Shown here piece by piece: positions 8,926 to 63,690 of a DNA stretch of 64,000 nucleotides. The position numbers and the translations under genes were made by a program. Position 1 is the stretch's first letter; every line of letters starts with the position of its first letter. The notes beneath the pieces are model-generated. The model saw nothing but the letters and a program-made list of their open reading frames with translations, ran no database searches and was not told the origin of the DNA. Origin of the DNA: Ectobius pallidus (taxonomy: Eukaryota; Arthropoda; Insecta; Blattodea; Ectobiidae); assembly GCA_964059195.1 (NCBI GenBank), contig CAXKWD010000003.1, positions 22,984,606 to 23,048,605 of the forward strand. Direction: 5' to 3'.

Positions 8926-9920
8926 ATACACCATTAATAGAAATAATTGACAATCAATAGTTCCATGGCCTACCCTACTGTGTAGACACACATTCCAAAC
9001 TCTTGATATGGTTTCAGCTAAAAGGAGTAAAAACACAGCTGAATTAAAAAAAATATATACATTAAATAGTGTTTTTACCTCATTATAAATCACAAATATT
9101 TATGCTACTAATACAGTACTTTCATCATAGAGTATTTTGTTTATTTCGTCTTTCGAAAGGCCCTGGAGAACAATCCTGATATAAAGGCTGATCATGAAGT
9201 AGCCTATTTTACAGTTCATATTTCAGACTAGGCTAGGCCTATACAAAAATACTGGCGCCTTAACGTCCAGGTAATCTCTGGGCATCTAAGGTTTCATAGG
9301 GAGCAATTTTTTGTACTAGAAGAGAAATATTTCCATTACGTGACTAATTCATTGTATTAATAGGTCTATGCCATTTTTATAATAAAATTTATCGATATAA
9401 AGTAAGACATTAATATCCCAAGAAGCAGTTTAAAAGCTCTTTAGGAGTTTATACTTCTCATAAACGTAAGATGAAAGGTGAAAATGTCTCCATTAGAGTC
9501 TGCAGTCTCCCTTCATGATTTCATTGCTGCATTTCTTGGAATAGAATAAAGGGAGTAATAAAATTCGACGTCTGTAGACCTATTCACTCAAAGAAATTAA
9601 AAAAAAAAAATCCCAATGCAGATCTCAACTTCGACATCTATATTGCCAATAGCTATCAGAATAAATAAAAAGTGAGATTCGTATGGTCATTTGCTCGTTT
9701 TGCGTCTCAACGAGGCAGTAAAACAATATATTCGGTTAACATGTGAAAGGTATGTCTCATTGCCCTGCTAAATAGACAGGGGAATAGGTAAGAAAACAGG
9801 TGTATTTCTCACAAGCTGATAATCTGCTCCACGCGTCATGCTGCCATTTATCCGAGTTCGTATTTTCTGGAGACACTGAGATAAAACTAGTTCATAGGAC
9901 AGGTGTATACACTGCACTGC
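8926..9920. other. No supported gene
   Basis: AT-rich, with a poly-A run near 9600. A 64-codon frame at 9800-9994 overlaps the tandem duplication that follows and has no recognised domain. Confidence 0.5.
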
Positions 9921-17720: not shown

Positions 17721-17725
17721 CACTT

Positions 17726-17800
17726 CTGTGCGGCAGAGGATTCTGCAGAGGAGATAACGGAGGAAAAAAAAAACATATCCTGAACTTCACAAATCCTACG
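17726..17800 (+). repeat. Direct repeat, left member
   Basis: 'ctgtgcggcagaggattc' through 'acatatcctgaacttcac' to 'atcctacg' recurs at 18124-18204 with small differences. The pair brackets the tRNA-arm foldback at 17905-18123. The right member is cut by a mariner end at its TA (18201-18202). Confidence 0.85.
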
Positions 17801-17904
17801 TCATAAAGCGGGTAGGAAAAATTGTAAAATCAATCGGGTTCACGAGAGGATATTCATAAAGTTTTGACTTGGAAAAACACTCCTAAATATCTATTTACAG
17901 TATA

Positions 17905-18123
17905 ATATTGTAGGAGAAAAATTCCTCTGACACTGGGATTTGAACCCAAGACCTTTGGCTATCCGTGCCAATGCTCTACCAACTGAGCTAAGCCAGAGTG
18001 CTATTTACAGCGCCAGATAGAATCTCTCTACTATGATAAACAAAGATCCTGGGTTTAAATCCCAGTGTAAGAGGAATTTTTCTCCTATAATATTATCATG
18101 TAATGTCCAATAGAGACAATAGT
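17905..18123. mobile_element. tRNA-arm foldback element, copy 1
   Basis: The left arm, starting near 17902 with 'tataatattgtaggagaaa', reads on the minus strand as the 3' half and then the rest of a tRNA-like body: A box 'tagctcagttggtagagc' and B box 'gggttcaaatccc'. The right arm (about 18050-18100) is the inverted 3' half, ending 'gaggaatttttctcctata'. Arms pair over roughly 50 bp around a core containing 'cagcgccagatagaatctc'. The right tail 'tgtaatgtccaatagagac' is shared with the copies at 57.8 and 63.5 kb but is truncated here. Confidence 0.75.
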
Positions 18124-18202
18124 CTGTGCGGTAGAGAATTCTGCAGAGGAGATAACCAAGGGGAAAAAACATATCCTGAACTTCACAAGGCGTTAAATCC
18201 TA
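18124..18202 (+). repeat. Direct repeat, right member
   Basis: Partner of 17726-17800. It is interrupted by the mariner remnant beginning at 18203, directly after a TA dinucleotide, which fits a mariner target site. Confidence 0.8.
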
Positions 18203-18545
18203 CGAGGCGCGTCCATAAAGTAAGTTTCCCTGGGACCGTTTACAGAAACAAAACACAATTTCAAGGAAATATTTATTGCAACAGACGCTGCCAGTGTTCA
18301 GCTATTTTTCAACATATTCGCCACCGGAATTGAAACATTTGTCATACCGTGGAAACAACTTTTGAATACCTGTGTCGTAGAAACCTGCCGCCTGGGATTT
18401 GAACCACCGAGTAACAACAACCTTCGGCTCTCTGTCATTCCTTGTCATTTCTTTAGATGTAGGAAAAGATGGAAATCACTGGGAGCGAAGTCTGGGCTTT
18501 AGGGTAGATTTTTAAACATATCCTAGCAAGTCTCGAGCTAAGCTG
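18203..18545 (-). pseudogene. mariner remnant: transposase C-terminus and 3' TIR
   Basis: Starts after TA with 'cgaggcgcgtccataaagta', the inverted 3' TIR. On the minus strand the translation gives YDTGIQKL, PRYDKCF-like and SGGEYVEK in nearby frames, which is the end of a mariner transposase, followed by a stop. Further in are degraded landmarks of the catalytic domain region. The element ends near 18545 without a matching 5' TIR, so it is truncated and dead. Confidence 0.83.
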
Positions 18546-48167: not shown

Positions 48168-48360
48168 CACTTTAATAAGTTAGATATATAAGCATTCATG
48201 AGCCACAATCGGTCATAGGAGGGAAGTTCCATCTGGTGCTGTGAATTGGGCTCCGGCTTAGCTCAGTTGGGAGAGCATTGGCGCGAATAGCCAAAGGTCC
48301 TGGGTTCAAGTCCCAGTGCCGGAGGAATTTTTCTCCTGTAATATTCTCACTTTAATAAGT
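48168..48360 (+). mobile_element. Solo tRNA-bearing mobile unit with 13-bp target duplications
   Basis: Identical 'cactttaataagt' at 48168-48180 and 48348-48360 flank a 167-bp unit. It contains 'aagcattcatgagccacaat', a linker 'ttccatctggtgctgtgaat', the tRNA-like body at 48252-48324 and a short trailer ending 'ctcctgtaatattct'. The tRNA lies at the 3' end of the sense strand and there is no A-rich tail, unlike ordinary tRNA-derived SINEs. Outer ends match those of the foldback at 63457-63678. Confidence 0.85.
48252..48324 (+). tRNA. tRNA-Phe-like sequence, probably a mobile pseudo-tRNA
   Basis: Cloverleaf by eye: acceptor strands pair at 6 of 7 positions (T-T at 7-66), D stem GCTC/GAGC, anticodon stem TTGGC/GCCAA and T stem CTGGG/CCCAG all pair perfectly. 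A box 'tagctcagttgggagagc', B box 'gggttcaagtccc'. The anticodon position reads GAA (Phe), but position 33 is C instead of T and position 37 is T instead of a purine, so decoding function is unlikely. A TTTTT Pol III terminator starts four bases downstream (48328-48332). The D arm equals that of typical tRNA-Phe. Confidence 0.6.
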
Positions 48361-52496: not shown

Positions 52497-53335
52497 AAGT
52501 TACGTTACATAGCTCCTATTTCCTAGAGGACAACACTGGAACATGCAGGGAAGATAAGGGGCAGAAAGTTAAAGATAGTGCCAGACTTCAAATATTTAGG
52601 CATCACGCTGCAAACAAGCGCAAAATTCTTCACAAAACACGTCACAGAGAAGGCAACCCAAGCAATAATGGCATCGCACGAAATAAAAAACATCAAAACC
52701 CTTAGCCTAGAGACAGCAATGTTACTATTCAGAGCAAAAATTCTTCCAATACTAACATACGGCATCGAAATCATCTGGCCACATTTAACAACAAAGAATC
52801 TATCCACCTTAGAAAGGGTGAAAGCAAACTACATAAAGAAAGCAATAGGAGTTTCAAAAATGACCCGGTCAAGACTCGCATATCTCCTGGCAAAGGAAAC
52901 CTTCCTCGTTGAAGATCTCAGGACAAGCATACCTCTACCCAACACCAGCGCATCAGAAAAACTGCTGGCAGCACTGACAGGAAAAAGAGATGAAGTACAA
53001 CCAGAATTCTATGGCAGAGGAGCCATGATAGACAGATCATGGTCAAAGGCAAACTTCGAAATGAGACACGCCATTACAAGATTGGCAGTCCACGGGTTTC
53101 ATCACCTAATGTGCAAAAACACACACTTCCATGAACCTAGTGTCGATTGTGAATGCTTACTATGTGAGAAACCGTGCGATCGGTACCATATCGAACTCTG
53201 TACAAAAAGAACAAAGACAATATGTGAATATGCAAACATGTAAACTACCATTGTAAACTATCTTTGAAGTATGGCTATTTGGCTGCATTTTATTTATTAT
53301 ACAAGGTGGAAGGGATATAACAGTGAAGAGTCGAG
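52497..53335 (+). pseudogene. Non-LTR retrotransposon 3' end with zinc-knuckle C-terminus
   Basis: The longest open frame in the window (52578-53243, 221 codons, continuing upstream in frame as GRKLKI). Landmarks: VPDFKYLGITLQT, ILPILTYGIEIIWPHL, LERVKANYIKKAIGV, RLAVHGFHHLM and a C-terminal CLLCEKPCDRYHIELC, which fits a CX2CX7HX3C zinc knuckle. This is the part after the catalytic RT motifs. No ATG is present at the frame start and catalytic residues are missing, so it is a 5'-truncated copy. Codons are GC-richer than the neighbourhood, suggesting a fairly recent insertion. Clade not determined. Confidence 0.88.
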
Positions 53336-57777: not shown

Positions 57778-58031
57778 TATTATAGGAGAAAAAATCCTCT
57801 GACACTGAGATTTGAACCCAAGATCTTTGACTATCCGTGCCAATGTTCTACCAACTGAGCTAAGGCAGAGTTCACTTCATAGCGCCAGATGGAACCTCTC
57901 TCCTATGACTGATTGCCCATAATGTTCTACCTCACTCCCAGTGTCAGAGGAATTTTCTCCTATAATATTATCATGTAATGTCCAACAGAGACAATAATCT
58001 GTGGTTCATGAATGCATATGCATATTTCTAT
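57778..58031. mobile_element. tRNA-arm foldback element, copy 2
   Basis: Left arm 'tataggagaaaaaatcctct' onward, with the inverse tRNA-like body (B box as 'gatttgaacccaagatc', A box as 'accaactgagctaaggca'). Core 'tagcgccagatggaacctct', right arm 'cccagtgtcagaggaatttt' and tail 'tcatgtaatgtccaacagag' then 'ctgtggttcatgaatgc'. Arms pair over about 30 bp. A weak 9-bp flanking duplication ('agcctatag'/'agcctacag') may mark its ends. Confidence 0.75.
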
Positions 58032-63444: not shown

Positions 63445-63690
63445 TCAAGATGTAGGGGAATATTATAGGAGAAAAATTCCTCCGACACTAGGACTTGAAC
63501 CCAGGACCTTTGGCTATTCGCGCCAATGCTCTACCAACTGAGCATTGATCTAGAGCATTGGCGCGAATAGCCAAAGGTCTGGGTTTAAGTCCCAGTGTCG
63601 GAGGAATTTTTCTCCTATAATATTCTCATGTAGTGTCCAACAGAGACAATCTGTGGTTCATGAATGCTTATATATCTATCAAGATGTAGG
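63445..63690. mobile_element. tRNA-arm foldback element, copy 3, with 12-bp target duplications
   Basis: Identical 'tcaagatgtagg' at 63445-63456 and 63679-63690 flank a 222-bp unit. Its arms (63458-63533 and 63551-63625) are tRNA-like bodies in opposite orientation, pairing over about 76 bp around a 17-base loop, with one single-base gap and a few mismatches. The right arm is followed by the family tail ending 'catgaatgcttatatatc', as in the 48.2-kb unit. Each arm carries 'aatttttctcct', a Pol III-type terminator, outside the tRNA body. Confidence 0.88.

Follow-up and report, generated by a model that had tools for sequence, protein, structure and literature searches.

SINEs depend on LINEs. 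Penelope-like retrotransposons (PLEs) are poorly understood, and the descriptions of two of them come closest to the insertions considered here. The PLE of Anolis (Poseidon PAc) cuts and extends both target strands, preferring 5′-ATT-3′ on each, and starts at two adjacent internal sites of its RNA, the stretch between these sites being the genomic "tail"; as far as that account goes, the start site does not differ between the strands and has no homology to the target (PMC11167929). In Adineta vaga, Penelope copies have head-to-head pLTRs, one of which bears a 31-bp tail, and 8-10-bp duplications, which some copies lack; the palindromes were attributed in this account to self-priming on an antisense template (PMC3846280). 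According to PMC7229834, PLEs are also strong candidates for the helpers of animal retrozymes. As to a parasite of the Penelope class with a small-RNA or tRNA promoter, none was found in the literature searched, which covered few subscription papers. The insertions described here look as though the RNA of the element had been copied onto each of the two ends of a cut chromosome, which is a Penelope-like signature and not that of ordinary short mobile elements.

The 63-kb insertion and its repeat family

The window, i.e., the whole 64-kb stretch of Ectobius pallidus DNA that was analysed, contains at 63445-63690 a single insertion derived from a tRNA-Phe-like repeat, in which an antisense arm is joined through a turn to a sense arm, with perfect 12-bp duplications outside. 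Its parts, followed by the other copies present in the window, are listed below; monomer positions refer to the 314-nt repeat unit.

63445..63456, no strand: left target-site duplication TCAAGATGTAGG, 12 bp
63458..63543, minus strand: antisense arm, its start being site C, monomer 97 down to 12
63544..63551, no strand: turn, an 8-nt filler ATTGATCT separating the arms
63552..63678, plus strand: sense arm, its end being site T, monomer 23 up to ~153
63626..63678, plus strand: "tail", the part of the sense arm past the antisense-arm start, monomer ~98-153
63679..63690, no strand: right target-site duplication TCAAGATGTAGG, 100% identical to the left copy
17895..18128, no strand: older member, antisense 105>278, sense 39>130
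48168..48360, plus orientation: member including 13-bp duplications CACTTTAATAAGT, antisense 157>127 (48177-48207), sense 273>100 (48208-48349)
57778..58019, no strand: older member, antisense 94>252, sense 62>146

The initial annotation had described the 63-kb copy as a foldback pairing over about 76 bp, with a 17-nt centre and perfect 12-bp duplications, and all of this was confirmed. Indeed, one pair of inverted arms (63458-63504/63579-63625, 47 nt, 96%) and a second pair with a one-base offset from the first (63498-63533/63551-63586, 36 nt, 92%) jointly give ~76 bp around a 17-nt centre. The antisense tRNA body (63488-63543, minus strand) matches the Rfam tRNA family with 32.6 bits, and two further bases are common to the sense arm and the duplication. 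A single pair of duplications encloses both arms; therefore two facing, independent solo insertions fail to explain the copy, which is one element, as had been proposed. The copies at 17.9 and 57.8 kb had also been rightly called inverted, an antisense and a sense segment being mapped in each; the count of three inverted copies out of four becomes four out of four, because the 48.2-kb copy, in which 31 nt run in one direction and 142 nt in the other inside 13-bp duplications, is inverted too.

No duplication was found around the 17.9-kb copy, and its right end does not lie at site T; a stretch (tctgtgcggcagaggattctgcagaggagataac...) seen by eye to be directly repeated on both of its sides (~17723-17800 and ~18127-18205) may be another repeat serving as insertion target. 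At the 57.8-kb copy, the flanks AGCCTATAG/AGCCTACAG were read by eye, and the script detected no duplication. Elsewhere in the window, 52578-53243 is an open frame, some relatives of which carry a reverse-transcriptase domain; its best named relative is from Blattella germanica (72% over 86%).

The family unit is a 314-nt monomer, and related loci hold tandem units of 314 nt. An exact 29-mer of the monomer (TAGAGCATTGGCGCGAATAGCCAAAGGTC) has 10,163 occurrences (5007 on the plus and 5156 on the minus strand) in the genome to which the window belongs (2.12 Gb, 410 contigs), while its reversed control has 0 occurrences in the same genome. When the 100 listed occurrences of the 29-mer were compared, neighbours no more than 1 kb apart were arranged -+ in 18 cases, ++ in 4, -- in 4 and +- in 0, the same-strand spacing being 313-314. 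The monomer comprises a tRNA-like body with A and B boxes (Rfam 52.6 bits in locus L003), a T5 run after this body and then a tail with a predicted hairpin. Its longest ATG-started sense ORF has 51 aa, and no reverse transcriptase or GIY-YIG ORF was found in it; a hammerhead core, which is reported in PLEs but is not taken as universal, was found in the monomer neither by Rfam nor by a custom scan, and a hammerhead retrozyme was thus discarded.

Upstream of the tRNA there is a diverged inverted copy of the tRNA 3′ half and trailer (score 17.5; the maximum of 500 shuffles was 13), which corresponds in L003 to monomer 279-314 against 53-92 and through which a long stem is predicted in the RNA; it is probably the fossil of an earlier two-armed insertion or turn. 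The acceptor pair 5-72 is C-G in 94 of 113 runs, T-A in 9 and other in 10. The longest element of the samples is a 2.1-kb palindromic array (L009:2667-4773) of ~6.7 units of 314 nt, with 1037 nt in antisense and 1070 nt in sense arranged head-to-head; its identity is 1.00 as printed, against a monomer cut from L009 itself. In L004, a short tandem array AATAACTAGAAGTTATT adjoins the insertion (~1973-2034).

Compared with the PLEs as described in PMC11167929 and PMC3846280, the family shares head-to-head copies, here within a single insertion, tandem units, short duplications, a one-sided tail between two adjacent internal start sites, apparent cutting and extension of both strands and a T-rich cut motif. 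Unlike them, it has no ORF, a tRNA-derived body, no hammerhead that could be found, a ~55-nt tail, one C and one T end per complete element and clear end microhomology; in particular, one start site per strand and microhomology between start site and target distinguish it from the Anolis PLE as reported. With the animal retrozymes of PMC7229834 it shares a non-coding tandem unit of ~300 nt, a non-LTR nature and duplications of more than 4 bp; it differs in having a tRNA in place of the hammerhead, type I hammerheads not being found in the monomer, and in its head-to-head arms, the word "inverted" being absent from the main text of that paper. A tRNA body, boxes A and B and 10-15-bp duplications are found also in the tRNA-derived SINEs Sbg1-9 of Blattella germanica (PMC9191728), which were compared by description only; unlike these, the family is two-armed and its 5′ end is off the pol III start. 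The tRNA-SINE layout, with a pol III start and a LINE-like 3′ tail, was not found, the antisense start being at C, nor was any sign of LINE dependence, as judged from the elements themselves. As in the Helenus and Ajax TRIMs, a non-autonomous retroelement that belongs to neither LINEs nor SINEs has acquired a small-RNA promoter; these TRIMs, unlike the family described here, belong to the LTR class, with 5-bp duplications in the Selaginella family, and the main text of the paper makes no mention of Penelope (PMC10886601).

Outer ends, arms and turns

Each base of a locus was assigned by a script to a position and strand on a 314-nt circle, position 1 being the first base of GCTCCGG. Three sets were used: the four copies of the window; 39 loci (41 elements) found by similarity to the 63-kb copy and hence biased towards its turn; and 40 sampled loci, which follow the order of the 29-mer list from the beginning of contig C1 (40 of 60 planned stretches, leaving out the places at 3.76, 3.81 and 4.83 Mb). 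Since a sampled locus had to contain this exact 29-mer, which lies in the tRNA body, copies without it are absent from this set. An element was called complete when its antisense arm started at 86-112 and its sense arm ended at 140-175.

A complete element, which runs in antisense from C, through a variable turn, and in sense to T, was found in 32 of the 40 sampled loci. These loci hold 45 elements: besides the 32 complete two-armed ones, 13 are not complete, 6 having the C end only (2 of them two-armed), 5 the T end only and 2 neither; complete elements are 32/41 in the biased set and 3/4 in the window. Two-armed inserts are the commonest form, and therefore the foldback is not a variant of a solo family, as had been initially supposed. 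Only 2 of the 90 elements are sense-only with a start near the tRNA start (L030 at 6, L067 at 311).

Among complete elements the outer ends are fixed and the inner ends are scattered. With the maximal duplication removed, the antisense arm starts at 95-100 in 39/44 cases and the sense arm ends at 150-155 in 46/50, as counted in all sets among elements whose duplication was at least 9 bp and which had no extra bases at the given end. Two-armed inserts with both ends assigned were CT in 67 cases, CC in none and TT in one, and this lone TT (L025) is a CT element interrupted by a later insertion. A DNA transposon with terminal inverted repeats, or a foldback element, would have the same palindromic look; however, the tail is one-sided and the ends are consequently not mutual inverted repeats, the duplications range from 9 to 16 bp and the arms are unequal in unit number. 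Such an origin is hardly conceivable and was rejected, as the structure of the ends refutes it.

In the 35 complete elements from the sampled loci (32) and the window (3), the median arm length is 186 nt in antisense and 186 nt in sense, with maxima of 636 and 539 nt; 11 antisense and 6 sense arms are longer than one unit, and the lengths of the two arms are uncorrelated (Spearman -0.004, P 0.98, n=35). The turn offsets, 19 positive and 16 negative, show no clear departure from uniform (KS P 0.12); small values are overrepresented (14/35 within 35 nt vs 7.9 expected). Microhomology at the turn junction is slight (mean 1.23 vs 0.70 random, n=31), and fillers occur at 4 turns. One turn, at monomer 16/24 with a GCTC/GAGC hairpin, recurs in the biased loci L005, L008 and L018. 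Inner ends are more frequent at 275-295 and 82-94, where a predicted RNA stem has its base (P 0.001 and 0.0005, post hoc); since the best 21-nt window gives P 0.13, no weight was placed on this excess.

These measures bear on self-primed (snapback) cDNA, which had been suggested for the 63-kb copy. Palindromic junctions are explained in this way in PMC3846280, where an antisense template is invoked for the head-to-head Penelope of Adineta, and the hairpin turn recurring in three biased loci would suit such priming. An antisense arm formed by snapback cannot exceed the length of the sense arm once the tail is subtracted; this limit is exceeded in 21/35 elements, and by more than 50 nt in 18/35, so that self-primed hairpin cDNA is excluded as a general route. 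The uncorrelated arm lengths, the antisense arm that ends at C and not at the target junction, and the turn offsets of both signs also argue against it. As the origin of the family snapback is highly improbable, having been refuted as the general route, though it may have made a minor contribution. Template switching within one cDNA, the other mechanism suggested earlier, fits less well than two cDNAs primed from two cut ends.

In classical twin priming a single linear RNA serves both primers, and twin-primed segments should therefore not overlap. The arms of the present family often cover the same sequence, at times more than one unit; moreover, two-armed inserts are its commonest form and its second start site has a fixed position, C. 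Twin priming driven by a LINE, acting on an ordinary tRNA SINE as in the 5′ inversions of L1, would account for the use of both cut ends and for duplications of 10-20 bp, but in human cells such inversions were seen only with L1, bar one Nimb-2_DR insert, in the data given by PMC4245944; this origin is very unlikely.

Another possible route is a pre-formed hairpin RNA, which would be transcribed across a foldback copy already in place, beginning at C in antisense and ending at T, and then reverse transcribed; its turns would vary because the polymerase jumps between the stem arms. Outer ends at fixed positions, microhomology at these ends and turns that vary would likewise result, and the offsets within 35 nt are somewhat enriched, as noted above. 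This route, however, requires an antisense promoter at C, whereas the tRNA promoter of the 5′ arm faces outward; the arm lengths are uncorrelated, and antisense starts inside C are few among the 90 elements (L042 at 88, L039 at 86, L013 at 59). Arms would presumably shrink at each generation, yet arms of 1-3 units in the 314-nt register are found, including those of L009. Copying of a hairpin RNA is accordingly considered unlikely.

Target sites and shared haplotypes

Duplications of 9-16 bp are present in 60 of the 90 elements of all sets. Those of at least 9 bp flank 30/35 complete elements (32 sampled and 3 from the window), the other 5 having no duplication of 9 bp, compared with 15 of the 1190 combinations obtained by exchanging left and right flanks between elements. 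Thus the foldback forms do have their own target duplications, a point that the initial annotation had listed for checking, and its claim that the foldback is due to a mechanism and not to chance is borne out.

The duplication extends into both insert ends: at C (n=44) the mean microhomology is 2.34 nt, as against 0.36 in random sequence of equal base composition, and at T (n=50) it is 1.54 nt, as against 0.39. AAC precedes the left cut in 21/60 targets, and the cut motif appears on both strands, with AA at -3,-2 in 29/60 and TT at +2,+3 in 22/60; TT lies immediately past the cut on either strand, and the cut preference of the two strands is similar.

At 17 marker sites, compared in the loci up to L062 and in the window, pairs within an element agree in 271/303 cases on the same strand (188 expected from allele frequencies) and in 540/603 cases across strands (380 expected). 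In the 35 complete elements, arms of the same element mismatch at 191/5953 (3.2%) and arms of different elements at 9747/194954 (5.0%); none of 5000 permutations gave a value as low as that observed. Mosaic elements exist (e.g., L050, L046, L058), and therefore a second template was at times used or inherited.

Proposed priming from two cut ends and resident GIY-YIG elements

The family is very probably a non-autonomous retroelement with a tRNA-derived 314-nt unit, moved in trans by a PLE protein through two-ended priming. The tRNA-derived unit would be transcribed, probably by pol III, and a PLE protein would be the putative enzyme; both target strands would be cut with a stagger of ~9-16 nt. 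Each 3′ overhang may then anneal to the sense RNA over a few nt and prime reverse transcription, one overhang starting at T (~150-155) and the other at C (~95-100). The two cDNAs would extend inward to independent lengths, on an RNA that may be circular or tandem, and their joining would give the head-to-head insert with a ~55-nt tail on one arm. What the sequence shows is consistent with this course: the outer ends cluster while the inner ones are scattered, every complete element has a single C and a single T end, duplications and microhomology at the ends are present, the arms share a haplotype, and the GIY-YIG elements described below have a like layout. Against the PLE reading, pol III should be halted ahead of T by the T5 run that directly follows the tRNA, and the Anolis enzyme is described as having no strand-specific starts and as starting without homology between RNA and target (PMC11167929). 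The failure to find a hammerhead core, the 13 incomplete elements among the 45 sampled and the 5 of 35 complete ones with no 9-bp duplication also count against it.

The family acts like a PLE, and its best description is that of a non-autonomous, tRNA-bearing passenger of PLEs. PLEs would represent the third class with such a passenger, beside LINEs, with their SINEs, and the LTR class, with TRIMs such as Helenus. More tentatively, and with slightly more doubt than confidence, the family could be the Penelope-dependent counterpart of a SINE, in which a PLE dimer holds the 314-nt, probably circular RNA and each cut end uses its own site, C or T; if so, its thousands of inserts would be a natural record of PLE integration chemistry. 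So many short inserts make the Penelope question, namely self-priming on an antisense template versus priming from both cut ends, a countable one; the counts speak for priming from both ends, each end having its own start site, and such a rule is not reported for the Anolis enzyme in the account of PMC11167929.

In the same genome, a profile of GIY-YIG (PF01541), which is the PLE endonuclease domain, gave 149 scored matches of 8401 candidates; among these 149, neighbours within 6 kb form 27 pairs, of which 26 are head-to-head, 1 is same-strand and 0 are tail-to-tail. Three GIY-YIG inserts belonging to two families were examined, having been picked for short separation. L083 (45-nt tail, 12-bp duplication) and L084 (41-nt tail, 14-bp duplication) belong together in one family and nearly agree in their outer ends; L085, from the other family, has a 48-nt tail and a 13-bp duplication; all three have the tail on one arm, a layout as in the tRNA-bearing family. 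The frames of L083 and L085 score above the GIY-YIG cut-off, and PDB relatives of L083 are chains 1mk0 and 1ln0 of "intron-associated endonuclease 1". On the basis of GIY-YIG, repetition and layout, the three inserts are probably PLEs. Comparison of the three with the monomer by blastn gave no convincing match (best E 0.17); a PLE with a tail or RNA-binding region like that of the monomer was thus not found in these two families, a further point against the PLE reading. Both GIY-YIG families have, as seen by eye, a common tail motif near CTTCACTGTA..TTCCATC, which is a possible conserved recognition site.
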